Shown in pieces: positions 10,244 through 24,784 of a stretch of 59,301 nt of DNA. A program made the translations under genes and the position numbers. The stretch lies in contig VGBL01000010.1 in assembly GCA_016870515.1 (NCBI GenBank), positions 1 to 59,301 of the forward strand, written 5' to 3'. This stretch comes from Actinomycetota bacterium. Its GTDB lineage: Bacteria; Actinomycetota; Actinomycetes; S36-B12. Positions within the stretch are counted from its first letter, which is position 1, and each line of letters starts with the position of its first letter. The notes under the pieces were generated by a model that had not been told where the DNA came from, made no database searches, and saw only the letters and a program-made list of their open reading frames with translations.

Positions 10244-11773
10244 CTACGCGTCCTTCGAGCCCCCCGCCATGAGGCGGCCGACACGCGCACGATCGGCTAC
10301 GGCTATGTCGAGCACGTCGACGAGGCGGCCGTCGTACATCACGGCGACGCGATCGGACAGGCCGAGGATCTCGTCGAGCTCAGCGGAGACGAGGAGGACG
10401 GCTGCTCCACGATCACGGGCGCCGACGATCTGCGAGTGAATGAACTCGATCGAGCCGACGTCAACCCCGCGCGTGGGCTGGGCCGCAATGAGCGCCACTG
10501 GGTTGGCCGCGAGCTCTCGTGCGATGACGATCTTCTGCTTGTTGCCGCCGGATAGCGACTGCACGGTCGTGGTGATGCCCGGGGTACGGATATCGAATTG
10601 CTGGACGAGGTTGGTCGACAGGGCGTCGATGGCCTTGCGGTCGCGCACGCCCCGGCTGGCGAATTCCGGCTCGGCAAAGCGGTCCAGCACGAGATTGTCA
10701 GCGACGGAGTAGGGGCCGACCAGGCCGTCCTTCTCGCGATCCTCGGGCACGTGCCCAACGCCCAAGGCGTGGATGTCGTGGGGGCTCTTGTTGAGGATGT
10801 CCTGGCCGTTGACGGTCACGGTCGTCGCCGAGCAGCGACGAAGCCCGGTCAGGGCCTGAACGAGTTCGCGCTGGCCGTTGCCCTCCACTCCTGCGATGCC
10901 CAGGATCTCGCCCGCGCGCACCTGCAGCGAAACGTCGCGCACGGCCGGCAGCCCGAGGTCGTCGGTCACCGTCAGGCCCTGGACGTCGAGGATGACCTCT
11001 TGGGGCTGCGCCGCCCGCTTGTCGACCTGCAGGAGCACCCCGCGGCCAACCATCATCTGGGCGAGGCCTTCCTGGCTGGTCTCTGCGGGGACCGTCGTGC
11101 CGACCCACTTGCCACCGCGGAGCACCTCGATGGTGTCGGCCACGGCGAGCACCTCGCGGAGCTTGTGCGTGATGAAGATGACCCCCACACCACTGTCGGC
11201 GAATCCACGCATGACCCGCAGCAGATCGTCGGTCTCCTGCGGGGTAAGCACGGCCGTGGGCTCGTCGAGGATGAGGATATCGGCGCGACGGTAGAGCGCC
11301 TTCAGGATCTCGACACGCTGCTGGGTGCCGACGGGCAGATCCTCGACGTGAGCATCGACGTCGACCTTGAGGCCGTATTCCTCCGACAGTCGGGCCACTT
11401 CGGCACGCGCACTCTTCATGTTGACGAAGGGCCAGCGCAGCGGCTCATCGCCGAGGACGATGTTTTCGGCGACAGTGAAGACGGGAACGAGTTGGAAGTG
11501 CTGGTGGACCATGCCGATCCCGCGCTTGATCGCGTCGCGCGGTCCGGCGAGGCGCACCGCCTCGCCCTTGATGCGAATCTCGCCCTCGTCCGGGGCGTAG
11601 AGGCCGTAGATCATCTTGACGAGGGTCGACTTGCCCGCACCGTTTTCGCCGAGCAGCGCGAGGATCTCGCCCTTGCGCAGGGTCAGCGAGACATCCTCAT
11701 TGGCGACAACGCCCGGGAATCTCTTGGTGAGGCCGGTGGCCTGCAGCAGCACCTCGCGCTCATCGGCAGCCAT
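10244..11773 (-). CDS. Nucleoside ABC transporter, ATP-binding protein (two cassettes)
   Basis: A 509-residue protein with two fused ABC cassettes. The first has intact Walker A (LGENGAGKST), LPVGTQQRVEILKALYR as the family-specific signature and ILILDEPTAVLTPQE. The second has a degenerate Walker A (GVEGNGQREL) but a good signature (LSGGNKQKIVIARELAANP). This layout is typical of YufO-type ATPases of BMP nucleoside importers. The ATG at 11773 is 2 bases after the permease stop; the open frame continues far upstream but only as an antisense-like shadow of the permease. It is the last gene of the four-gene importer operon. Confidence 0.92.
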   Translation of the reverse strand: MAADEREVLLQATGLTKRFPGVVANEDVSLTLRKGEILALLGENGAGKSTLVKMIYGLYAPDEGEIRIKGEAVRLAGPRDAIKRGIGMVHQHFQLVPVFTVAENIVLGDEPLRWPFVNMKSARAEVARLSEEYGLKVDVDAHVEDLPVGTQQRVEILKALYRRADILILDEPTAVLTPQETDDLLRVMRGFADSGVGVIFITHKLREVLAVADTIEVLRGGKWVGTTVPAETSQEGLAQMMVGRGVLLQVDKRAAQPQEVILDVQGLTVTDDLGLPAVRDVSLQVRAGEILGIAGVEGNGQRELVQALTGLRRCSATTVTVNGQDILNKSPHDIHALGVGHVPEDREKDGLVGPYSVADNLVLDRFAEPEFASRGVRDRKAIDALSTNLVQQFDIRTPGITTTVQSLSGGNKQKIVIARELAANPVALIAAQPTRGVDVGSIEFIHSQIVGARDRGAAVLLVSAELDEILGLSDRVAVMYDGRLVDVLDIAVADRARVGRLMAGGSKDA

Positions 11774-11775
11774 CG

Positions 11776-12750
11776 TCAGTCCTTCTCGTACGGTCGGCCG
11801 ACGGCAGATGGCGGCTTGATGCGTCCGGAGACGACGGCCAGGAGCACGATGGTGAGGACGTAGGGCAGCATGTTGATGAACTGCTGCGGGATGGCAATGA
11901 CCTCGTCGGCCTGCAACTGGCTGGCAAGGCCCTGGGTGAGTCCGAAGAAGAACGCCGCGGCCAGGGCACCGATCGGGTTCCAGGCCCCGAAGATCATGAT
12001 GGCCAGGGCAGTGAAGCCGCGACCGGCAGTGAATCCACGCTCGAAGGTGCCGGCCGCCTCGATGGCGAGGTAGGCGCCCGCCATGCCGGCGAGTGCGCCC
12101 GCGATGGTGACGTTCCAAAAGCGCATGGGGTCCACGCCGACGCCTGACGTGTCGGCGGCGCTGGGCTTCTCGCCGACCGCCCGGGTGCGCAAGCCCCAGC
12201 GAGTCTTGAACAGCAGCACCCAAAGGATCAGGGGAATCGCCACGGCCGCATAGGTGAAGAGCCCGTTGTTGAACAAGACCGGCCCGGCCAGCGGGATATC
12301 CGAGAGCAGCGGGATGGCGACGATGGGAGTGTTGCCCGGCAGCACCTGGCCCTGCACGTAGAAGAAGCTCGTCAGGCCCACGGCGAGAATGTTGATGACC
12401 GTGCCGGCGATGATCTGGTCCATCTTCCACGTGACGGCGCCTGTCGCCAGGAAGGCGCCCATGATCATGCCGGTGCCGATGCCGATGAGGGTGCCGAGAA
12501 TGAGGTTGCCCGTCACCGCGGCGCCGAAGAACCCGGCGAACGCGCTCATCAGCATCTGGCCCTCGATACCGATGTTGATGACGCCACTGCGCTCGCAGAC
12601 GATGCCGACCATCGCGGCCAGGATAAGGGGGACGGCGTAGCGCAGGGAGAAGGAGAGCACCGAGACAGTGCGGATCTCGTCGAGGAAGAAGCAGACGACG
12701 ATGGCGATCCCGATGATGATTGCCAAGGCATAGGCGTAGCGGGCCCTCAT
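11776..12750 (-). CDS. Nucleoside ABC transporter, permease (YufQ-like)
   Basis: A 324-residue protein with about 8-9 hydrophobic helices and the segment RYAVPLILAAMVGIVCERSG then VINIGIEGQMLMSAFAGFF, the hallmark of BPD_transp_2 permeases of the BMP/YufPQ nucleoside importer family. I chose ATG at 12750 because it makes an ATGA overlap with the previous permease; an ATG nine bases upstream is also possible. It pairs with the other permease to form the heterodimeric membrane channel. Confidence 0.9.
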   Translation of the reverse strand: MRARYAYALAIIIGIAIVVCFFLDEIRTVSVLSFSLRYAVPLILAAMVGIVCERSGVINIGIEGQMLMSAFAGFFGAAVTGNLILGTLIGIGTGMIMGAFLATGAVTWKMDQIIAGTVINILAVGLTSFFYVQGQVLPGNTPIVAIPLLSDIPLAGPVLFNNGLFTYAAVAIPLILWVLLFKTRWGLRTRAVGEKPSAADTSGVGVDPMRFWNVTIAGALAGMAGAYLAIEAAGTFERGFTAGRGFTALAIMIFGAWNPIGALAAAFFFGLTQGLASQLQADEVIAIPQQFINMLPYVLTIVLLAVVSGRIKPPSAVGRPYEKD

Positions 12751-13862
12751 GACCCCCACCCCTGCGTGACCTGGGTCTGCTTGATGTTGCGCTTCCGGAA
12801 GAGCAGGCGGGCCACGATCGGCGCGGACACCAGCAGCAGGGTGATCGCCAGAATGACGTCGACCACCTCGGGCTCGATCCCCGTCTGGAACTGCAGAGCC
12901 GCGGCACCGGACCGGAGGGTGCCAATGAGGATGGCGGCCGGAATCGTCGCGATCGGGTTGGCCCGGGCAAGAAGCGCAATGGTTATGCCGTCAAAGCCGA
13001 GCCCGGCATTGAAGGCCGGCTCGAAGCGACCGGTGACTCCCAACGTCTCGATGGCACCACCCATGCCGGCGAGCGCTCCACTCACCGCCATCGCGAGTAG
13101 GATCGTGCCCTTGACCGAGATGCCGGCGTAGCGGGCGGCACTGGGGTTGAGGCCGACCGTGTTGAAGCGGAATCCCTGCGTGGTGCGCGACAGGAGCCAA
13201 CCGAACACGATCGCCACCACGATGGCAATGAGGAACCCGGACGGGACGATGCCGAAGGTGGGCAGCATCGCCGTGGGCGCTATCTCGGGTGTGCGGGTAA
13301 GCGGCTGATCGGGCTCCTTGAAGGGCTCGCTGGCCAGGTAGTCGACCAGCGCGATGGCGATACTGTTGAGCATGATGGTCGTGATGACCTCGGAGACGCT
13401 CCGGTAGGCGCGCAGGGCACCGGCGATCGATGCCCACGCGGCTCCGCAGAGCATGCCGAAGACCAGCGCCACAGGGATATGCAGGACCATCGGCATCTGG
13501 AAGTTGTAGCCGGCCCAGGCCGTGCCCAGTGCGGCCACGAGCAACTGGCCCTGGGCGCCGATGTTGAACAACCCGGCGCGCAGGCCGACGGTGACCGCAA
13601 GGCCGGTCAGGATCAGGGGAGTCGACTTCTGCATGACTCGCAGGAGCCCCTCGGTCGTGCCTAGCGCGTTGCTGAAGAGGACGTAGTAGGCCTGGAACGG
13701 ATTGACCCCCTGCAACCAGATCAGGATCCCGCCGATGGCAAAGGCGAGCAGGACCGATACGACCGGAATGACAATGGCGGGCAGCCGATCGAGCGGGCCG
13801 CCACGCCGAGGATCGGGATCGGTAAATCCCAGGTCGGTGCGGGCCGGATCAGTTGTCGACAT
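12747..13862 (-). CDS. Nucleoside ABC transporter, permease (YufP-like)
   Basis: A 371-residue permease with an N-terminal cytoplasmic tail, then helices including AIVIPVVSVLLAFAIGGILI. The GLRAGLFNIGAQGQLLVAALG segment and the later GFDGITIALLARANP are typical of the larger permease of BMP-type importers. It lies 88 bases after the binding-protein gene, with a strong hairpin between them, so it is probably transcribed at a lower level than the binding protein. Confidence 0.9.
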   Translation of the reverse strand: MSTTDPARTDLGFTDPDPRRGGPLDRLPAIVIPVVSVLLAFAIGGILIWLQGVNPFQAYYVLFSNALGTTEGLLRVMQKSTPLILTGLAVTVGLRAGLFNIGAQGQLLVAALGTAWAGYNFQMPMVLHIPVALVFGMLCGAAWASIAGALRAYRSVSEVITTIMLNSIAIALVDYLASEPFKEPDQPLTRTPEIAPTAMLPTFGIVPSGFLIAIVVAIVFGWLLSRTTQGFRFNTVGLNPSAARYAGISVKGTILLAMAVSGALAGMGGAIETLGVTGRFEPAFNAGLGFDGITIALLARANPIATIPAAILIGTLRSGAAALQFQTGIEPEVVDVILAITLLLVSAPIVARLLFRKRNIKQTQVTQGWGS

Positions 13863-13890
13863 GGTCTTGGCATCCTCGCATGGAAATCAA

Positions 13891-13920
13891 GGAGGGGGTG
13901 GCGGGTACGCCACCCCCTCC
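13891..13920. terminator. Perfect 13-bp hairpin between binding-protein and permease genes
   Basis: GGAGGGGGTGGCG pairs without mismatch with CGCCACCCCCTCC across the loop GGTA. It sits 30 bases after the lipoprotein stop and 28 bases before the permease start, inside the operon. It probably acts as an attenuator or an mRNA-end stabiliser that gives more binding protein than transporter. Confidence 0.65.
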
Positions 13921-13950
13921 TCTACGCGATTGCGCGTGAGTTGTTGCGAA

Positions 13951-15006
13951 CTAGAGCGTCACGTTGGTCATGATCGTGCCGGCGTCCAGCCCGGCGATGA
14001 CCTCGGCGACCTTGGCCTTGACGTCGTCCGGCACGGCAGCCTCGGTGTCATGGTACGGAGCGAGGCCGGTGAGACCGAAGTAGTTGCCGCCCTTGCGCGT
14101 GCCCGCCTGAGCCTGCTCGATCAGCGTCCTGGTGCCGAGCGTCAGCTTCTTCTCCGCGGAGGTCAGCAGGCACGTGGCGGCCTGTGGCACGGTGAAGAAC
14201 TGGTCGGTGTCGACGCCGATGCAGAAGATGGACTCGCCGGCTCCGGGTGCCTTGGCAATCTCGATCAGTGCGCCATTGCCGGTGTTGCCACCCGCACCGA
14301 AGATGATGTCAGCGCCCTGTGCGAGCTGCTTCTTGGCCTCAGCAGCACCCCACTCCGGATCATTGAACGCGTTATCGGGAGCGTGGTAGACGAGGGTTAC
14401 TTCAACGCTCGGATTGGCTGCCAGCGCACCGGCCTTGTAGCCCTCGCCGAACAGCTTCACCGGGGGAACGGTGTCGGTGCCCAGGACCGCGCCAATCTTG
14501 CCGGTCTTGGTCATCAGGCCCGCGAGATAGCCGGCTGCGTAGCCCGCCTTGTCCTCGGGGAAGACCAGGCCGGTGAGGTTGGGGATCTCCTCGCCCTGGA
14601 ACTGGTCGACACCGATGAACTGGACGTTGGGGTTGGCCTTTGCGGCCGCGATCGACGCCTCGCCCATGAGGAAGCCGACCGTCACGATGACGTCGTACTG
14701 CGCCTGGATGAACTGATTGATGTTGTTCTCGTAGTCCTTGGGGTCGACCGTCTCGACGTACTTGGCGTAACCACCGGTGGCAGAGGCGGCTTCGAGAGCG
14801 CCCTCCCATGCGGACTGGTTGAAGGACTTGTCGTCGACCTTGCCGGTGTCAGTGACGAGACCGATGCAGAAGGCATCGGCACCGGGGCAGTCACCCTGAC
14901 CGCCGGCAGCGGAAGACGAGGAACTGCCGCCGCCGCTACCGCCACAGGCGGCCAAGACAACGGCAGAAGCGGCGGCAACGGCCGCCAAAGCGATCTTGCG
15001 ATGCAT
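13951..15006 (-). CDS. BMP-family nucleoside-binding lipoprotein
   Basis: The extracellular substrate-binding component of the importer. The 351-residue product has a lipoprotein signal ending in the lipobox LAAC (Cys near residue 21), a serine/glycine linker (GGSGGGSSSSS) and a BMP domain with IGLVTDTGKVDDKSFNQSAWEG at its start and GKIGAVLGTDTVPPVKLFGEGY mid-way. A GAAGGG ribosome site precedes the ATG. Characterised relatives (Treponema PnrA, Bacillus BmpA) bind purine or pyrimidine nucleosides. It leads the operon and is followed by an attenuator-like hairpin. Confidence 0.92.
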   Translation of the reverse strand: MHRKIALAAVAAASAVVLAACGGSGGGSSSSSAAGGQGDCPGADAFCIGLVTDTGKVDDKSFNQSAWEGALEAASATGGYAKYVETVDPKDYENNINQFIQAQYDVIVTVGFLMGEASIAAAKANPNVQFIGVDQFQGEEIPNLTGLVFPEDKAGYAAGYLAGLMTKTGKIGAVLGTDTVPPVKLFGEGYKAGALAANPSVEVTLVYHAPDNAFNDPEWGAAEAKKQLAQGADIIFGAGGNTGNGALIEIAKAPGAGESIFCIGVDTDQFFTVPQAATCLLTSAEKKLTLGTRTLIEQAQAGTRKGGNYFGLTGLAPYHDTEAAVPDDVKAKVAEVIAGLDAGTIMTNVTL

Positions 15007-15195: not shown

Positions 15196-15897
15196 TTAGG
15201 GAAGTCGTGCGCTTGCCGACCAGCCGGCGTCGACCACGAGCACCACGCCGGAGACTCCGGAAGCCTCGGGGCTTGCCAGGAATCGCGCAGCGCAGGCCAC
15301 CTCCTCCGCGCTCACGATGCTCCCGCGCGGCGTGCTGGCCGTCCACGACGCATGGCCCTCGGGCCAGGCGGCCGCGAGGCCGTCTCGCTCGATGAGTCCG
15401 GGCGCCACGGCATTCGCGCGCACACCCCGCGGGCCGAGATCCAGCGATAACGAACGGGTGAAAGCTTCGAGGGCCGCCTTCGAAGCGGCATAGGGAGCGG
15501 CAACCGCAAATGCCTGGGTCGCGGCGACGGACGACACATTGACCACCGACGACCCCGGTGGCATGTGCGGCACCATCAAGGTCGTCAGCCGCACGGCGCT
15601 CAGCAATGTGGCGTCGAGCATCTGCATCCACCGATGGGCATCGAAGGGCCCGGCCTCGCCGATCATCTGGTCAGCCGAGTTATTGACGAGTACGTCGACC
15701 CGTCCATGGATGGCCACCAAGGAGTCGACGAGCACCTCGACATCCGCATCCGAGGTCAGGTCACCGGTCACATCGCCTCTGTCGGCCGATCGAGACTGGC
15801 GGACCACGGTGTCCCCCTGCGAGGCGAACGCCGCCACCAATGCCTGGCCGAGACCGCCGGACGCGCCGGTGATCACCACGATGCGCCCACTAGCCAC
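15196..15897 (-). CDS. Short-chain dehydrogenase/reductase
   Basis: A 233-residue SDR with the cofactor motif TGASGGLGQAL near residue 10, NNSAD (in place of the usual NNAG), a catalytic serine in VVNVSSVAA and the YAASK active-site motif, then PGLIERDG. The Asn-Asn-Ser variant is unusual but the Ser-Tyr-Lys triad is intact. It is the last gene of the run amidohydrolase-cupin-SDR; its start overlaps the cupin gene by 8 bases. The substrate is unknown; the neighbours suggest nucleoside- or sugar-derived compounds. Confidence 0.8.
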   Translation of the reverse strand: MASGRIVVITGASGGLGQALVAAFASQGDTVVRQSRSADRGDVTGDLTSDADVEVLVDSLVAIHGRVDVLVNNSADQMIGEAGPFDAHRWMQMLDATLLSAVRLTTLMVPHMPPGSSVVNVSSVAATQAFAVAAPYAASKAALEAFTRSLSLDLGPRGVRANAVAPGLIERDGLAAAWPEGHASWTASTPRGSIVSAEEVACAARFLASPEASGVSGVVLVVDAGWSASARLP

Positions 15898-16348
15898 GGA
15901 TCAGGCCTCCGATGGCATCGCGTGCCTGTGGCCACGCGGAGAAGTCGGTGCTGGCATCGGCGAGAGTGAAACCACTGAAGGGCGGAGCGAGCGAGCACAC
16001 GACGAGACTCCAATCCCCCACCGTCCGCGAACCCTGCCATGTGCCGGCTGGCACGAGGACCGCGGGCGAGTGGCCGGCAAGGGTGTCGCTGCCGAGCACG
16101 CGAACTTCGTGCCCACCGGATAGGTGCAGCATGAGCATCTCGATGGGTGCCCCCGCCACATGCACCCAGAGTTCGTCCTCGCGAAGCACGTGCATAGCAC
16201 TGAAGTCCTTCGGCGTGAGGAAGCCGTAGATGGCGCTGCCATGCTCGGTACGGAAGATGAGCTTGAACCACACTCCCTCGCCCTCGAGGTAGTCGAGGCC
16301 GATCGATTCGATGACCTGATCGGCGGTCAGCGCACCGAGGTCGGTCAC
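15890..16348 (-). CDS. Cupin protein of the DUF985 family
   Basis: A 152-residue single-domain cupin. It reads GVWFKLIFRTEHGSAIYGFL, then SAMHVLREDELWVHVAGAPIEMLML and PAGTWQGSRTVGDWSLVVCSLAPPF, which match the DUF985 (PF06172) family. Family members bind small sugar-like ligands in structures, but their role is poorly known. It overlaps the amidohydrolase stop (16345-16348) and the SDR start, so it belongs to the salvage transcript. Confidence 0.8.
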   Translation of the reverse strand: MTDLGALTADQVIESIGLDYLEGEGVWFKLIFRTEHGSAIYGFLTPKDFSAMHVLREDELWVHVAGAPIEMLMLHLSGGHEVRVLGSDTLAGHSPAVLVPAGTWQGSRTVGDWSLVVCSLAPPFSGFTLADASTDFSAWPQARDAIGGLIRG

Positions 16349-17688
16349 GATGCCTTCACCACGTCGTAGGCATCGCGCAGGATCTGATCGGTGTCGACCC
16401 GGGTCGGCTGACGATCGATGACCACCGGCTCACCGGCCACCAGCACATGGCGCACGTCGGATCGGCCCGCCGAGAAGACGATCGCCGTGTACGGGTCATG
16501 AAGGGGCACCAGGTGAGGGGCGCGAAGGTCTATGGCGACGAGATCAGCCTCCTTGCCTACCTCGACCGTGCCGATGCGGTCACCGAGGCGAACAGCACGT
16601 GCACCCTCGAGCGTTGCGGCCGCCACGATGTCGCGCGCGGAGATGGCCGCAGGGTCATCACGCACGAGGCGTGCCAGGTTGGCCGCTAGGCGCATCACGG
16701 AGAACATGTCAAGATCATTGCTGGACGAGCAACCATCGGTGCCCAGGCCCACGCGAATGCCATCGGCGCGATAGCCCACGATGTCGGCCGCGCCACTGGC
16801 TAGCTTGAGGTTGGAACCCGGGCAGTGAGCAACCGACGTGTCGGTCTGCGCGACCGTCCGGCGTTCGGACTCGTCGAGTCGAACGCCATGGCCGAGGACG
16901 GGTGCCAGGGTCAGAACCCCAGAAGACTCCAGTGCCGGGATCGGTCGCATGCCGGTGGCCTTGACCGTGTCGGCGTTCTCCTGGTCGTTCTCCGACGCAT
17001 GCGTGTGGATGATCGAGCCCTGAGCGCGTGCGAGGTCGGCGATCTCCCGCAGGTGATCGACACCGACGGTGAACGCCGCGTGCGGCATGAGCGCGGATGG
17101 CACGTGCGGGCCGCCGAGCGAGGCAAGCGTCTGCGGCCACGCGCGAGCGAGATCCATGCGCTCATCCCAGGACAGGCCATCGGGCCCGGGGAAGGAGAAG
17201 AAGACGGGCCCGGTCACATGCCGCAGGCCGACGTCCACCGCGGCGCGATGGGCATCGGCCGGGTGGAAGTACATGTCGAGCGCTGTCGTCGTGCCGCCGA
17301 GCAGGGACTCGAGGGCACCGAGGCGAGTGCCGACGTAGACGCCGCGTAGATCCATGACCCGGGCCTCCTCGGCCCACACCCTCTGGAGGAATCCCTGGAG
17401 GTCGACGTCCTCGGCAATGCCACGGAGAAGCGTCATGGCGAGGTGGGTGTGCAGGTTGACGAGCCCGGGCATCACCAGGAGGTCACGTCCATCGATGACC
17501 GTGTCAGCGTCGGGTACATCGGAGCCCATGCTCACGATGCGACCGTCGTCCACGGCGATCGTGACGCCGTCGAGCGCGGCACCGGACTCATCGGCCATGA
17601 CGACATGGCGCGCATCGCGAATGACGAGGTCGACGCTCATGTCGATGCGGCCAGGGTTTGCGCCGCGCGATCGAGGACCTTCGCTCAC
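16345..17688 (-). CDS. Amidohydrolase, methylthioadenosine/S-adenosylhomocysteine deaminase-like
   Basis: A 447-residue metal-dependent hydrolase of the TRZ/ATZ/MtaD subfamily. The metal ligands are visible as LVNLHTHLAMT (HxH), HTHASEN and GLGTDGCSSSND, with a substrate-side histidine in SVAHCPGSNLKLASG. Characterised relatives deaminate 5'-methylthioadenosine, SAH, adenosine-like nucleosides or guanine derivatives. The start is GTG at 17688 in a GTGA overlap with cdd, with GGAG 8 bases upstream; ATG at 17640 is an alternative. Position between a nucleoside importer, cdd and mtn genes supports a nucleoside substrate, possibly methylthioadenosine. The exact substrate cannot be read from sequence. 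Confidence 0.82.
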   Translation of the reverse strand: MSEGPRSRGANPGRIDMSVDLVIRDARHVVMADESGAALDGVTIAVDDGRIVSMGSDVPDADTVIDGRDLLVMPGLVNLHTHLAMTLLRGIAEDVDLQGFLQRVWAEEARVMDLRGVYVGTRLGALESLLGGTTTALDMYFHPADAHRAAVDVGLRHVTGPVFFSFPGPDGLSWDERMDLARAWPQTLASLGGPHVPSALMPHAAFTVGVDHLREIADLARAQGSIIHTHASENDQENADTVKATGMRPIPALESSGVLTLAPVLGHGVRLDESERRTVAQTDTSVAHCPGSNLKLASGAADIVGYRADGIRVGLGTDGCSSSNDLDMFSVMRLAANLARLVRDDPAAISARDIVAAATLEGARAVRLGDRIGTVEVGKEADLVAIDLRAPHLVPLHDPYTAIVFSAGRSDVRHVLVAGEPVVIDRQPTRVDTDQILRDAYDVVKAS

Positions 17689-18086
17689 GGGATGGACTCC
17701 GGGCCGAAGGCGTCGGGGATGAGTTCGCCCAGACGCATGGGACCCCCGGCCCGGTCGATGAGGATCTTGGCGCCCCCGTGCTCATTGAGCAGTTGGCGGC
17801 AGCGACCGCAGGGCAGGAGGGGTCCGGGCTTGGGACCGACGCATGCGAAGGCAACGATAGATTCGCGCGCGCTCGGTGGGCTCGTGCGCACGAGGTCGCT
17901 CACCAGGCCGCACTCCGCGCAGAGCGTGACGCCGAGGGAAGCGTTTTCGACATTGCACCCAGTGACGATGCGCCCTGACGACGTCAGCGCGGCGGCGCCG
18001 ACGGGATGGCGACTGTAGGGCGCGTAGGCGTGATCGCGCGCCTCCTCGGCAGCCGCACGCAGGGCGGGCCAGTCGATGTCGGTCAT
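17685..18086 (-). CDS. cdd: Cytidine deaminase
   Basis: Converts cytidine and deoxycytidine to uridine and deoxyuridine. The 133-residue product has the normal length of the homotetrameric form. The zinc site is complete: CAE in NVENASLGVTLCAECGLV and PCGRCRQLL. ATG at 18086 overlaps the mtnD stop as ATGA, so it is coupled to the mtn genes. Together with the BMP importer it forms a nucleoside uptake and salvage unit common in actinobacteria, here merged with methionine salvage. Confidence 0.92.
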   Translation of the reverse strand: MTDIDWPALRAAAEEARDHAYAPYSRHPVGAAALTSSGRIVTGCNVENASLGVTLCAECGLVSDLVRTSPPSARESIVAFACVGPKPGPLLPCGRCRQLLNEHGGAKILIDRAGGPMRLGELIPDAFGPESIP

Positions 18087-18661
18087 GCCGGTGCGAGCGC
18101 GAGCTCGTCGAACGTGGGGAACTTCGACGAGATATCGCTGCCCGTGAACGTGCCCACCCATCCGTCGTCGTCGTGGAAGAAGCGGATGGCGGTGAAGTCG
18201 GGAGCCGTGCCCATGTCGAACCAGTGCGTCGTGAGCTCCGGCACGCTGAGGAGGTCGCCCGGGGTGCACAGCATGGCGTGAACCTTGCCGCCAATGTGGA
18301 GATAGAAGACGCCGGAGCCCGCCACAAAGTAGCGGATCTCCTCCTCGTCGTGGGTGTGCTCGTTGAGGAACTTGGTGCGGGCAGCCGCGGCCGTCACTCG
18401 CCATTCATCCGAGTCGACCGGGTGCAGCTGGGCGACGTCCACCAAGCGGTAGCCATGCTCCGCGATGAGCCGGTCGACGAGGGGGCGGTGGGCCGCGAGG
18501 ACGTCGTCCTGGCTCGCGCCGTCAGGCAGTCGGTCGCCCGCGGGGACGTGCTCGTAGACCACGCCGAGCGGCGCGAGCTGCTCGGCGATGACGGTGCGGT
18601 CGTCGGTGCGCAGGATCGCAGAGTCGGGCTGGTCGTCGTGCCAGACTGTGAGCAGTGTCAT
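18083..18661 (-). CDS. mtnD: Acireductone dioxygenase
   Basis: A cupin-fold metalloenzyme of the methionine salvage pathway. With iron it turns the acireductone plus O2 into the keto acid precursor of methionine and formate. The 192-residue product has the metal ligands EHTHDEEEIRYF (HxHx3E) and a later histidine in PELTTHWFDMG, and ends with the usual FTGSDIS segment. It overlaps mtnB and cdd by four bases each (ATGA), so mtnB-mtnD-cdd are translationally coupled. Confidence 0.93.
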   Translation of the reverse strand: MTLLTVWHDDQPDSAILRTDDRTVIAEQLAPLGVVYEHVPAGDRLPDGASQDDVLAAHRPLVDRLIAEHGYRLVDVAQLHPVDSDEWRVTAAAARTKFLNEHTHDEEEIRYFVAGSGVFYLHIGGKVHAMLCTPGDLLSVPELTTHWFDMGTAPDFTAIRFFHDDDGWVGTFTGSDISSKFPTFDELALAPA

Positions 18662-19284
18662 CGGTCCTCCTCGTGGTGCGTGCCGACATTGTGGCCCAGG
18701 GCCGCCAGGGCGTCGAGGCGCAGGGCGTGATCGAAGAGCCAGTCGAGGCTCTCAGTGCGGGCCACGGCCTCCTCGAGGGACGCTCCCCACGTGTAGATGC
18801 CGTGCTGGGCGACGATCACGCACGGCACGCCGGTGTCCATCGCCTGGACGACGCGTGCGGACAGGTCGGCCATGTCCTGCGAGTTGGCCACCACCGGCAC
18901 CGTAATCAGGTCGCCCTCGGCTCCGCGACCGATGCCCTTGAGTTGCTCGACATCGGCCAACGGAACGCCGTGCGGCCAGCGGGCGGCTGCCACCACACCC
19001 GACATGGCGTGCACGTGAACGGCAGCATCGGCACGTGCCGCATTGAGGATTGCGGCGTGGACCCGCGCTTCGGCGCTGGGGCTCAGTGCCTGGCCAGGGA
19101 TCGCCTCACCGAGGGCGTCGACCTCCACGACGTGGTCTTCGCCCAACGTCGCCTTGTCGACGCCACTGGCCGTGACCAGCACGCGGGAGTCGGTGCGCAG
19201 CGAGGCATTGCCAGATGTGCCGCGCATCCAGCCGAGGTCGTAGAGACGCCGCGACGTGAGCGCAAGTTGCTGCTCCGCAGACAT
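18658..19284 (-). CDS. mtnB: Methylthioribulose-1-phosphate dehydratase
   Basis: A class II aldolase-fold dehydratase acting on methylthioribulose-1-phosphate. The 208-residue product has LGWMRGTSGNASLR at the N-terminus, zinc-binding VHVHAMSG and a later AQHGIYTWG. The class II aldolase fold alone could be a sugar-phosphate aldolase, but adjacency to mtnD and mtnC settles the assignment. It starts with ATG at 19284, preceded by GGGGAGG. Its start is only 14 bases from that of divergent mtnC; its own promoter must lie inside mtnC, where TACTGT (19302-19307, minus strand) is a -10 candidate. Confidence 0.92.
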   Translation of the reverse strand: MSAEQQLALTSRRLYDLGWMRGTSGNASLRTDSRVLVTASGVDKATLGEDHVVEVDALGEAIPGQALSPSAEARVHAAILNAARADAAVHVHAMSGVVAAARWPHGVPLADVEQLKGIGRGAEGDLITVPVVANSQDMADLSARVVQAMDTGVPCVIVAQHGIYTWGASLEEAVARTESLDWLFDHALRLDALAALGHNVGTHHEEDR

Positions 19285-19298: not shown

Positions 19299-20015
19299 AT
19301 GACAGTAGCGGAGGCATCCTTCGCCGATGTCGCTCACATCGTGGTCGACATCGAGGGGACGACGAGCCGCTCCACCTACATCTACGAGGTTCTGTTTCCC
19401 TATGCGACGCAGCGCTTCGACTCCTGGCTGACCGCACACGCCGACGACCCCGCGGTGCGCGAGATCCTCACGCAAGTGGGCCAGGAAATGGCGGCCGTCG
19501 ACCCAACCCACGATCAGGTCGTGCAGGCACTGACCGACTGGGTCGCGGAGGACCGCAAGGTCACACCTCTCAAGACGCTGCAGGGACTCATCTGGCAGGA
19601 GGGCTTCGACAGCGGCGAACTCGTCTCCGACTTCTATTCCGACGCGCTCGATGCGCTTCGCGCCTGGCACGACGCCGGAATGCCGATCTCGGTGTATTCC
19701 TCGGGGTCGGTGCTCGCGCAGCGCAACTGGTACGCCCACTCGCCGATCGGCGATCTCACGTCGTGGGTCAGCGGCTACTACGACACCGCCAACGCCGGGC
19801 CCAAGCGCGATGCATCGTCGTACCGGGCCATCGCCGAGGCTATCGGAGCCGAACCCGCCACGCTTCTCTTCTGCTCCGACGTGGTCGACGAGCTCGATGC
19901 CGCCCATGTCGCCGGCTGGCGGGTCGTGCGAGTGCGGCGCCCCGGCGAATCCCATGCGGCCGACAACTCGGGGTGGCCCGAGGTGGCCGAGATGACCGCC
20001 ATCCGCGTGAACTGA
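19299..20015 (+). CDS. mtnC: Enolase-phosphatase E1
   Basis: A HAD-superfamily enzyme that enolises and dephosphorylates diketomethylthiopentyl-1-phosphate to the acireductone. The 238-residue product has HAD motif I as DIEGTTSRS (residues 17-25), motif II as YSSGSVLAQRN, the lysine of motif III in AGPKRDASSY and motif IV in LFCSDVVDELDAA. It lacks a ribosome-binding site; a -10-like TAGCCT lies 7 bases upstream, so it is probably leaderless. It is the only plus-strand gene in the salvage region and is divergent from mtnB-mtnD-cdd. Confidence 0.93.
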   Translation: MTVAEASFADVAHIVVDIEGTTSRSTYIYEVLFPYATQRFDSWLTAHADDPAVREILTQVGQEMAAVDPTHDQVVQALTDWVAEDRKVTPLKTLQGLIWQEGFDSGELVSDFYSDALDALRAWHDAGMPISVYSSGSVLAQRNWYAHSPIGDLTSWVSGYYDTANAGPKRDASSYRAIAEAIGAEPATLLFCSDVVDELDAAHVAGWRVVRVRRPGESHAADNSGWPEVAEMTAIRVN

Positions 20016-20101: not shown

Positions 20102-22060
20102 TCAGCGGGGGAAGGCGCCGGCCACACCGCCGTCGACGGGAATCACCGCGCCCGTGGTGCGCGACGACGCGTCAGAGAGCAGGAACGCGACCGAGGCGGC
20201 GACGTCCGTGGTCGTCACGCGGCGCTTGAGGATATTGCGGGCGGCGTAGAAGTCCTCGAGTTCATCGGGCCGGATACCATGCGCCGCAGCCCGCTCCTCG
20301 CGCAGTCCATCGTCCCACAGTCGCGAGTTGTCGAAGACAGCGTCGGGGTTGACCGCGTTGGCGCGGATGCCGGTCGGGCCGCCCTCCAGCGCTGCAATGC
20401 GCATGAGCTGCACCATGCCGGCCTTCGACACGGAGTAGGCACCGAAGCCGGCACCCGGGCTAAAGGCATTCTTGCTCGCGACGTAGACCAGCGAGCCACC
20501 ATTGCCCTGCTCGCGCATGAGGCGCATCGACTCCCGGGTCAGCAGGAAGCCCGACGTGAGGTTGATCCGCTGCGCTCGCTCCCACTGATCGAGCGAGAGC
20601 TCCTCGAGGGTGCCGGTCACGCCGATCCCCGCGTTGACGACGATGCCGTCGAGGCCGCCGTAGGCGCGAACCGCCGCGCGTACGGTCGCGCGGACGATTG
20701 CCTCGTCCGACTGGTCGCCAACGACCACCTGGGGCTGCGGCCCCCGCCTGGCAACATCGGCGGCGGAGGCCTCGACCCCAGCGCCGTCCAGGTCGGCCAG
20801 CACGAGCGAGGCACCGAGGCGCCCGAGTTCAAGGGCGATACCCCGACCGATACCCGACGCTGCCCCGGTGACAACCGCAACGAATCCCGCGAACGGCGGT
20901 GGCGGCGGCTTCAGCGTCAGTTTGTACAACTCCATCGGCCAGTAGTCGAACTCGAATGTGTCGACCTCGCTCAACGGCTCGGGCGTCCCGAAGGCATCGA
21001 CGACATTGGCGGCGACCGTGTGAGTGTGCAGGGCGATATCGGCAAGAACGCCGGCGTCGACGGCGGAGGCGCCAGCCGTGATCGCGCCGACACCGGGGAC
21101 GAGCATGACGCGCGGCAGTGGGTCATGGCCACCGGACCCCTCGGGTATGAGGGCGGCATTGCGCGCGACATAGGCCTCGTAGTTGGCGGCGTAGGCGTCG
21201 ACACGCGCGACCGCCTCGTCAGCTGATCGCACGACTAGGGATCGGGGCTTGATGCGCAGCATGTGGTCGGCGCTGGAGACACCGCCCGCCACGATGTCGT
21301 CCACGCGTGCATGGTCGGCCATCGGCCTCAGGCGCTCGTCGATGCGCAGGACCCGGCGGCCGAGGCGTCCGCGCAGGCGCAGGAGCAGCCGCTCGACTTC
21401 GTCGTCGGCAAGCTCGGCGTGCACGGGCGGCGGGCCGGGGGTGATGCGATGGGCGGAGACATAGGCCACGGCGGTGTCGACCGTGCGCCGCGTTGCCGCC
21501 CAGCACTCGTCCGTCGTGGCACCCCACGTCACCAGGCCGTGGTGGGCGAGCACCACGCCGTCGCAGTCCGCTAGGTCGCCGATGATGCGGCTGAGCTCGA
21601 ATCCGGGCCGGATCCAGTCGACGTAGGCGAACCGATCGCCGAGTGCCTCGGCCGTCACCCGCCTGCCCTCGGCGTGGTTGGTCAGCGCACAGATGGCGTC
21701 GGCATGGACGTGATCGATGTGCGTGAAGGGCAGGAAGGCATGCAGGAGCGTCTCGATCGACGGTCGCAAAGATCCTGGATGGAGCAGCGCACGCGCCACG
21801 AGGTCGGTCATCTCCTCGTCGGACATCGCATCGAATCCACGGAGGGCCTCCAACTCCTCCAGGCGCAGTCCGGGGTAGTCGGCGGCAACCGAACCGCGCA
21901 TGTCGGCACCGGAGCCCTTGACCCACATGACGCGCTGCTCGCGACCGAGATGATCGCAGATGATGCCCTTGGCCGAGGTGTTGCCGCCGCCAAAGACGAC
22001 GAGCGTGGAATCGTCGCCGATGCGATTGGACCGTGCGACGAGGTCTTCAAGAGGCGTCAT
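20102..22060 (-). CDS. Bifunctional class II aldolase / short-chain dehydrogenase
   Basis: A 652-residue fusion. The N-terminal half is a class II aldolase domain (FGGGNTSAKG near 29, KGSGADMR, HPGSLRPSIETLLHAF, zinc site HIDHVHADA and HHGLVTWG). The C-terminal quarter to third is an SDR (VVTGAASGIGRGIALELGR, VVNAGIG, VASKNAFSPG, YSVSK). The closest known architecture is the rhamnulose-1-phosphate aldolase/lactaldehyde dehydrogenase fusion (RhaEW/YuxG type). No rhamnose genes are present; instead it follows mtnA by 1 base on the same transcript, so the substrate may be 5-deoxyribulose- or methylthioribulose-1-phosphate. I chose ATG at 22060 with GGGGGAG upstream; a start at 22081 would overlap mtnA. 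Confidence 0.85.
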   Translation of the reverse strand: MTPLEDLVARSNRIGDDSTLVVFGGGNTSAKGIICDHLGREQRVMWVKGSGADMRGSVAADYPGLRLEELEALRGFDAMSDEEMTDLVARALLHPGSLRPSIETLLHAFLPFTHIDHVHADAICALTNHAEGRRVTAEALGDRFAYVDWIRPGFELSRIIGDLADCDGVVLAHHGLVTWGATTDECWAATRRTVDTAVAYVSAHRITPGPPPVHAELADDEVERLLLRLRGRLGRRVLRIDERLRPMADHARVDDIVAGGVSSADHMLRIKPRSLVVRSADEAVARVDAYAANYEAYVARNAALIPEGSGGHDPLPRVMLVPGVGAITAGASAVDAGVLADIALHTHTVAANVVDAFGTPEPLSEVDTFEFDYWPMELYKLTLKPPPPPFAGFVAVVTGAASGIGRGIALELGRLGASLVLADLDGAGVEASAADVARRGPQPQVVVGDQSDEAIVRATVRAAVRAYGGLDGIVVNAGIGVTGTLEELSLDQWERAQRINLTSGFLLTRESMRLMREQGNGGSLVYVASKNAFSPGAGFGAYSVSKAGMVQLMRIAALEGGPTGIRANAVNPDAVFDNSRLWDDGLREERAAAHGIRPDELEDFYAARNILKRRVTTTDVAASVAFLLSDASSRTTGAVIPVDGGVAGAFPR

Positions 22061-22061
22061 G

Positions 22062-23096
22062 TCACTCCCCCACCAGGGCACCGACCGAAGTCACGCCGTC
22101 GGGCTCCACCGCCGCGCGCTCAGAGACGACGGCACTGATGTAGCGAGCAGGCGTGACATCGAAGGCGGGGTTGAGGCCCTCGCTGCCGATCGGAGCCACC
22201 GATACGCCCGCGTAGGTGGTCACCTCGCTGCCGTCACGAAGCTCGATCTCGATGTACGACCCGTCAGGCGTCGACATGTCGACCGTCGACGACGGTGCCG
22301 CGACAACGAACGGGATCCCTGCGGCGTCGCACGCGAGCGCGACGCCGACTGAGCCGATTTTGTTGGCCGTGTCGCCGTTGCGGGCGATGCGATCGGCACC
22401 GACGATCGCGACATCGACGAGTCCGCGCAGGATGGTCGACGCGGCGGCACCATCGGCTTGGACCAGGCACGGGATGCCCTGGCGTTTGCACTCCCACGCG
22501 GTGAGCCGAGCGCCCTGCAGAAGCGGCCGCGTTTCGTCGGCGTAGACCATCTCGACCTCGCCCCGCTCGTGCAGCTCGCGGATGACCCCGAACGCCGTTC
22601 CCCACCCCGTAGTGGCCAGGTCGCCGGTGTTGCAGTGGGTCAGCACGCGAACGGGCCGCCGCTCGACGCGAGCCAGGATCCAGTCAGCGCCGATGCGCGA
22701 CAGTTCGCGATTGGCCGCCTGGTCTTCGCGGACGATGGCGTGTGCCTCGCTGAGCACGGCAGCCACGCCACCGGACGTGAGGGGTCGCACACGATCGACG
22801 CCCCAGGCCAGGTTGACCGCCGTCGGTCGCGCCTCACGTATGCGCAGGATATCGGCCTGGAGTCGCGCGTCGTCCCATCCCTCGCGCGAGGCCTGGTTCA
22901 TCGCGACAGCGACGCCGTAGGCACCTACTGCGCCCAATGCGGGTGCACCGCGGACGACCAGTCGCCGCACCGAATCGACGACGGCATCGACATCGGCGCA
23001 CGCTCGGTAGTCCTCATGGGCCGGGAGCTTGGTCTGATCAAGCAAGACCAGGACATTGCGGACGTCGTCCCAGTGGACCGCGCGTACGTCGTGCAT
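22062..23096 (-). CDS. mtnA: Methylthioribose-1-phosphate isomerase
   Basis: Converts methylthioribose-1-phosphate to the ribulose form; some homologues also accept 5-deoxyribose-1-phosphate. The 344-residue product has RRLVVRGAPALGAVGAYG, the catalytic cysteine in LTHCNTGDLATTGWGTA, and the catalytic aspartate in VGADRIARNGDTANKIG. ATG at 23096 is 2 bases after the mutase stop and gives the usual N-terminus (VRAVHWDD); the frame extends upstream without similarity. It is in the minus-strand run sdhCAB-mutase-mtnA-aldolase, away from the other mtn genes on the opposite side of mtnC. Confidence 0.93.
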   Translation of the reverse strand: MHDVRAVHWDDVRNVLVLLDQTKLPAHEDYRACADVDAVVDSVRRLVVRGAPALGAVGAYGVAVAMNQASREGWDDARLQADILRIREARPTAVNLAWGVDRVRPLTSGGVAAVLSEAHAIVREDQAANRELSRIGADWILARVERRPVRVLTHCNTGDLATTGWGTAFGVIRELHERGEVEMVYADETRPLLQGARLTAWECKRQGIPCLVQADGAAASTILRGLVDVAIVGADRIARNGDTANKIGSVGVALACDAAGIPFVVAAPSSTVDMSTPDGSYIEIELRDGSEVTTYAGVSVAPIGSEGLNPAFDVTPARYISAVVSERAAVEPDGVTSVGALVGE

Positions 23097-23098
23097 GC

Positions 23099-24784
<1,686 letters not shown>

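Follow-up and report, generated by a model that had tools for sequence, protein, structure and literature searches.

The systems closest to the locus described here are the dihydroxyacetone phosphate (DHAP) shunt, the bifunctional protein RhaEW and universal methionine salvage. The known DHAP shunt comprises MtnK/MtnP, MtnA and the aldolase Ald2 in R. rubrum, R. palustris and extraintestinal pathogenic E. coli (North and co-workers), with the drdK-drdI-drdA cluster as its counterpart in Bacillus thuringiensis, and its enzymes accept methylthio as well as 5-deoxy substrates. RhaEW (YuxG) combines a rhamnulose-1-phosphate aldolase with an L-lactaldehyde dehydrogenase (Rodionova et al. 2013, PMC3870299). 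Its aldolase reaction is coupled to an NAD+-dependent oxidation of the aldehyde, NADH gave no activity, and its orthologues were stated to be always located inside rha loci (PMC3870299). In the present work, a stretch of 59,301 nucleotides from an Actinomycetota bacterium (contig VGBL01000010.1, positions 1 to 59,301; in the following, this whole stretch is called the window) was analyzed, in which mtnA is directly followed by a gene for a fusion of a class II aldolase and a short-chain dehydrogenase/reductase (SDR). Based on sequence and genomic context, this fusion is assumed, with a probability of about 0.8, to act after MtnA as the last enzyme in a DHAP shunt.

The fusion is encoded as a single copy in the window genome (2.4 Mb, 61 contigs, 96.7% complete), where all remaining matches were SDR domains only. 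Its open reading frame (ORF) begins with the ATG at 22060 and ends with the TGA at 20104-20102; a single base (22061) lies between the stop of mtnA and this ATG, and the mutase gene (23099-24784, minus strand) stops 2 bases ahead of the ATG of mtnA. The length of 652 residues and both spacings, as given in the preliminary description, proved to be exact in a check of ORF and sequence.

20102..22060, minus strand: fusion of 652 amino acids (aa), predicted 5-methylthioribulose-1-phosphate / 5-deoxyribulose-1-phosphate aldolase and aldehyde dehydrogenase
21446..22060, minus strand: class II aldolase catalytic domain of the fusion, residues 1-205, with H117, H119 and H174 as metal ligands and E103 as catalytic residue
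20105..20890, minus strand: SDR domain of the fusion, residues 391-652, with TGxxxGxG (398-405), D423 (NAD-type) and S529-Y542-K546
22062..23096, minus strand: mtnA, 5-methylthioribose-1-phosphate isomerase, 344 aa, TIGR00512 386 bits (cutoff 279)

The family matches of the fusion cover residues 8-193 (Aldolase_II) and 399-646 (adh_short_C2), and its top NCBIfam match is "bifunctional aldolase/short-chain dehydrogenase" with 574.7 bits. In the alignment, the metal triad and the acid/base Glu103 were invariant in all 35 members of the clade of mtnA-linked fusions. In the SDR half, Ser529, Tyr542 and Lys546 are kept, and Asp423 follows strand beta-2, again in 35 of 35 members. An aspartate at this position is a mark of NAD use in SDRs, which suggests an NAD-type rather than an NADP-type enzyme. 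For the AlphaFold2 (AF2) model of the aldolase domain, 3m4r was the nearest structure (Z 31), followed by FucA and DrdA (6btg) with a Z of about 21, while the full-length model returned SDRs only among the matches listed. The fold comparison did not discriminate between possible substrates, as the aldolase domain was matched by FucA, DrdA and RhaD alike (Z 19-21).

The most direct link of the fusion to MtnA is its position. In every locus of the clade having both genes on one contig, mtnA lies immediately upstream of the fusion, often with an overlap, the gaps being mostly -1 to 25 nt and 64 nt at most. Since this adjacency recurs in every such locus, it is not due to chance. The pair, for which the preliminary description had suggested a search in other genomes, was found in dozens of genomes and several lineages. 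Among 58 genomes of the order (32 with and 26 without the fusion), MtnA was encoded in 31 of 32 fusion genomes compared to 2 of 26 order-mates without it; the p-values of this co-occurrence treat related genomes as independent and are indicative only, as they overstate its strength. The MtnA proteins exceeded the cutoff for 5-methylthioribose-1-phosphate (MTR-1-P) isomerase. A phylum-wide search of 396 genomes with a strict E-value yielded no further mtnA-linked members and added relatives of 41-44% identity as well as the basal member G427. Within the clade, the label "other" marks a contig end (L059) and G137. Three metagenome-assembled records titled "Bifidobacterium breve" or "Rubrivirga" (L050, L053, L045) carry a Nanopelagicales-type cluster with a fusion of 64-71% identity; these records look mis-named or mis-binned.

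In its architecture the fusion resembles RhaEW, to which it is related. Both proteins comprise the same domain order, are homologous over the full length and share all catalytic motifs, and the identity of the fusion to rhaI-linked RhaEW amounts to 36-44%. Judged by its phylogeny, however, it is not RhaEW by descent. In two trees, one of them calculated with a site-mixture model, the mtnA-linked proteins grouped apart, in a clade supported at 100/100 whose stem is long (0.78-0.84 changes per site). Compared to the rhaI-linked copies, which reached 960-1023 bits on TIGR02632 (RhaD-ADH, cutoff 567.75), the window fusion scored 524 bits and five other clade members 434-564 bits, all below the curated cutoff. 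Neither RhaI nor RhaA, the two rhamnose isomerase families, had a match in the window genome. Within the order, a true RhaI (>600 bits) adjoins a paralogue of about 37% identity instead of the fusion, and three genomes (G080, G081, G146) hold both the fusion and this rhaI-linked paralogue on different contigs. In other actinobacterial families, the relatives of 41-44% identity adjoin rhaI in four of the five loci with flanks checked, while the fusion is linked to mtnA or mtnK, the mtnA linkage being conserved across families. Based on tree, cutoff and linkage, a rhamnose function by orthology was rejected, and a rhamnulose-1-phosphate aldolase/lactaldehyde dehydrogenase that came to lie beside mtnA by chance is very improbable. 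Orthology to rhamnose-linked RhaEW, which according to the preliminary description would speak against a role after MtnA, was thus not found, and fusion-mtnA pairs do occur in genomes without a rhamnose isomerase, including that of the window. Apart from this, RhaEW-type paralogues without an adjacent RhaI were observed in seven order-mates (G117, G115, G034, G138, G133, G043, G101) at L080 and L083-L088, of which L083 still reached 977 bits on TIGR02632. Another sugar or isomerase may be involved here.

Two genomes of the order that encode MtnA and no fusion (G133, G054) showed a stand-alone class II aldolase of 212 residues directly downstream of mtnA. In G133 it occupies the position of the fusion in the window, with mtnA on one side and the convergent mtnC on the other. 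This slot aldolase is a member of the FucA family (FucA 175 bits, DrdA 122 bits), and the identity to Ald2 of E. coli S88, which is encoded next to mtnA, was 41% for G133 and 35% for G054. Since an Ald2-like gene follows mtnA in both genomes, the characterized type of aldolase for the MtnA product and the fusion share one operon position among sister genomes, despite coming from different subfamilies; between the fusion aldolase and Ald2, no BLAST similarity was detectable. At residue 173, directly ahead of the third metal ligand, the fusion clade has His or Asn, and the RhaEW copies used for comparison have Lys, Gly or Arg. The equivalent position is His in FucA and Ald2 and Asn in the slot aldolases of G133 and G054. 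With regard to the C4 stereochemistry of the substrate, this pattern is a pointer and not a proof.

The slot aldolase of G054 matched best to the model of ribulose-1-phosphate aldolase (184 bits, below the cutoff of 300). This could be explained if MtnA and the following aldolase degraded ordinary nucleoside ribose, from ribose-1-phosphate via ribulose-1-phosphate to DHAP and glycolaldehyde, which would then yield glycolate. A nucleoside importer and a cytidine deaminase in the window cluster, and a uridine/purine phosphorylase-like gene adjoining the basal fusion of G427, would fit to such a route. However, the MtnA proteins lie above the cutoff for MTR-1-P isomerase, and that of the window reaches 133 of 314 bits on the model of ribose-1,5-bisphosphate isomerase. 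Furthermore, several lineages show a linkage of the fusion to a 5-methylthioribose (MTR) kinase that scores above the equivalog cutoff, and MtnB, MtnC and MtnD are encoded in the same cluster in the window genus. A degradation of ordinary ribose is therefore considered very unlikely compared to a DHAP shunt.

In the window, MtnA, MtnB, MtnC and MtnD are all encoded in the cluster, so that the set for universal methionine salvage, of which the fusion itself is no defining part, is complete there. The cluster comprises the following further genes.

19299..20015, plus strand: mtnC, acireductone synthase, convergent with the fusion, TIGR01691 222 bits (cutoff 128)
18658..19284, minus strand: mtnB, methylthioribulose-1-phosphate dehydratase, TIGR03328 150.5 bits (cutoff 137)
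18083..18661, minus strand: mtnD, acireductone dioxygenase (ARD), PF03079 above cutoff at 18155-18379
17685..18083, minus strand: cytidine deaminase, PRK05578 153.8 bits (cutoff 74)
16345..17640, minus strand: amidohydrolase, relative of methylthioadenosine (MTA)/S-adenosylhomocysteine and 5'-deoxyadenosine deaminases, best PRK09045 359 bits, PRK07228 312 bits, below every curated cutoff
15890..16348, minus strand: Cupin_5 (DUF985) protein, conserved cluster neighbor, family match
15196..15897, minus strand: stand-alone SDR, conserved cluster neighbor, family match
10244..15006, minus strand: nucleoside-type ATP-binding cassette (ABC) importer, with PnrA/Bmp binding protein at 13951-15006, permease at 12747-13862 and ATPase in the open frame 10244-12979

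The mutase (23099-24784) is the large subunit of a B12-type acyl-CoA mutase without cobalamin domain; its closest solved relative is 2-hydroxyisobutyryl-CoA mutase (556.6 bits), narrowly above methylmalonyl-CoA mutases (538 bits), and its linkage to mtnA is confined to one family. The Cupin_5 protein and the stand-alone SDR may act on nucleosides or 1-phospho sugars. Both neighbors also occur beside the most basal fusion, that of G427 (L122:3710-4153 and L122:1-771).

Regarding INDEPENDENCE from MtnBCD, 19 of the 32 fusion genomes encode neither MtnC nor MtnD, and nine of these 19 are assemblies listed as at least 90% complete. The fusion is therefore not a mere accessory of the O2-dependent methionine salvage. 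The fork between the fusion and MtnB-MtnC-MtnD assumed in the preliminary description holds true for the window genus and a few others, while elsewhere the fusion is present without MtnC and MtnD. Several of the clusters without MtnC and MtnD add an S-methyl-5-thioribose kinase (384.6 bits, cutoff 275), often beside the fusion, and have a ribose-type ABC importer and a regulator of the GntR or SorC type as well. In the Aquiluna/Pontimonas loci, the regulator is of the SorC type and shows 28% identity to YjhU (MtnR), the repressor of the DHAP shunt in E. coli. Within the window's own family, most of the fusion genomes encode a phosphorylase similar to those of MTA (MTAP) or methylthioinosine (MTI; MTIP) instead of the MTR kinase. 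Most relatives thereby have one of the two enzymes, both of which are predicted to feed the 1-phosphate to MtnA. Taken together with the Ald2-type aldolases in the same slot, the MTR kinase in genomes without MtnC and MtnD strengthens the proposal that the fusion could form a DHAP-shunt branch.

Five points weigh against this assignment. RhaE-type aldolases use a ketose of the other C4 configuration, so that an aldolase half of RhaE descent would need a stereochemical change. Secondly, the genome-wide absence of salvage genes refers to MtnC and MtnD only. Thirdly, the window genome lacks the MTAP/MTIP-like phosphorylase of most of its sister genomes, showing only a purine nucleoside phosphorylase-like match of 80 bits, and an MTR kinase was not found in it either, so that the source of MTR-1-P is uncertain in this genome. 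Fourthly, the clade member G137 has no adjacent mtnA, and MtnA was not found in this fragmented assembly. Finally, G427, the most basal member, also has no adjacent mtnA (no search for MtnA was made in G427); its locus contains the uridine/purine phosphorylase-like gene instead, along with the same Cupin_5 and SDR neighbors as the window cluster. In the window, the amidohydrolase and cytidine deaminase genes enclose 17640-17685 without the phosphorylase gene that sister genomes have kept (e.g. L042:13954-14697).

In the proposed DHAP shunt, MtnA would convert 5-methylthioribose-1-phosphate, and probably also 5-deoxyribose-1-phosphate, to the ribulose form. The aldolase half, with Glu103 as acid/base and His117, His119 and His174 as metal ligands, would cleave the latter to DHAP and 2-(methylthio)acetaldehyde or acetaldehyde, which the SDR half would convert with NAD(H), most likely by oxidation with NAD+ to (methylthio)acetate or acetate. 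In the window genus, the fusion would compete with MtnB-MtnC-MtnD at the point of MtnA, so that a recovery of methionine would stand against a recovery of carbon. In many relatives, the fusion would work without MtnC and MtnD and would be fed by the MTR kinase and a sugar importer or by the MTA/MTI phosphorylase.

The direction of the NAD-linked step could also be the opposite. Carbonyl reduction is common among SDRs, and in R. rubrum methylthioacetaldehyde is reduced by an alcohol dehydrogenase (PMC6302742), so that within the same pathway the SDR half might form methylthioethanol or ethanol, like the alcohol dehydrogenase after Ald2. However, Asp423 suggests NAD over NADP, and since the closest characterized fusion, RhaEW, oxidizes with NAD+ and was inactive with NADH (PMC3870299), the step is probably an oxidation and a reduction appears less likely, at odds of roughly one to three.

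A similar ambiguity concerns the origin of the sugar phosphate, since sequence alone does not separate MTA from 5'-deoxyadenosine as its source. A system dedicated to 5'-deoxyadenosine from radical S-adenosylmethionine (SAM)/B12 enzymes would yield DHAP and acetaldehyde, and from the latter acetate. This is in line with 5'-deoxyadenosine deaminase as the second-best model of the amidohydrolase, with the linked B12-dependent mutase and with the use of 5-deoxyribulose-1-phosphate by DrdA and E. coli Ald2 (PMC6079011, PMC10986504). In contrast, MtnBCD in the cluster indicates MTA, the kinase model is that of the MTR kinase and the link to the mutase is limited to one family. Since the known DHAP-shunt enzymes take both substrates, exclusivity is unlikely, and a system for 5'-deoxyadenosine only is regarded as rather improbable.

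Compared to the known DHAP shunt, the loci show the same succession of MtnA and a metal-dependent class II aldolase, as well as, in several lineages, the MTR kinase and the sugar transporter and, in Aquiluna/Pontimonas, the SorC regulator, and an Ald2-like aldolase occupies the slot of the fusion in sister genomes. The fusion aldolase differs in belonging to the RhaE branch and not to the FucA-like Ald2/DrdA subfamily, though the fold is the same. Furthermore, an NAD-type dehydrogenase is fused to it, while in the known versions the aldehyde is handled by separate enzymes. With universal methionine salvage the fusion shares MtnA and, in the window genus, also the cluster, but it would discard the methylthio group as aldehyde or acid and not rebuild methionine. 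Altogether, the fusion would work like the DHAP shunt but with a different aldolase subfamily joined to the next enzyme, and would be a previously undescribed version of it. No description of such a fusion was found in the literature on the DHAP shunt, in a search that left out most subscription papers.

Of the 19 fusion genomes without MtnC and MtnD, 16 encoded a close relative of one RuBisCO-like protein, compared to 0 of the 13 with them; a few other matches were weak and distant. Where the flank was long enough, this protein was encoded no more than about 10 kb away from the fusion, and a two-subunit transketolase was present there as well.

L100:9948-11051, minus strand: RuBisCO-like protein, best NCBIfam match MtnW-like PRK09549, 209 bits, below cutoff
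L044, L045, L048, L055-L057, L061, L062, L096, L097, L099, L101, L102, L106-L108: further loci with the RuBisCO-like protein
L048:5589-6629 and L045:8828-9763: examples of the transketolase subunits

In the MTA-isoprenoid route of R. rubrum a RuBisCO-like protein acts after MtnA. The protein found here may provide a second route out of the MtnA product. The sole close match in an order-mate without the fusion (G101:C69:108-1160) lies 108 bases from a contig edge. As sister genomes have the fusion and mtnA at that edge, their lack in G101 may be an assembly gap. As a tentative extension, which we consider possible rather than probable, the loci could represent a distinct actinobacterial DHAP shunt, in which the fusion replaces Ald2 and the aldehyde dehydrogenase and which in several aquatic lineages is coupled to a second MtnA exit of RuBisCO-like protein and two-subunit transketolase, possibly via 1-methylthio- or 1-deoxyxylulose-5-phosphate. 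Such a system would enable streamlined aquatic actinobacteria to draw carbon from methylthioribose and 5-deoxyribose in place of methionine recycling.

If the proposed shunt is true, an entire protein clade, which automatic pipelines label with rhamnose, would receive a function, and the DHAP shunt would have more than one origin, with one operon slot occupied by different aldolase subfamilies. The fusion also suggests that handing over the reactive (methylthio)acetaldehyde between the two halves of one protein is of advantage. It would further suggest that many aquatic actinobacteria use the methylthioribose unit for carbon, or choose between carbon and methionine at the point of MtnA.

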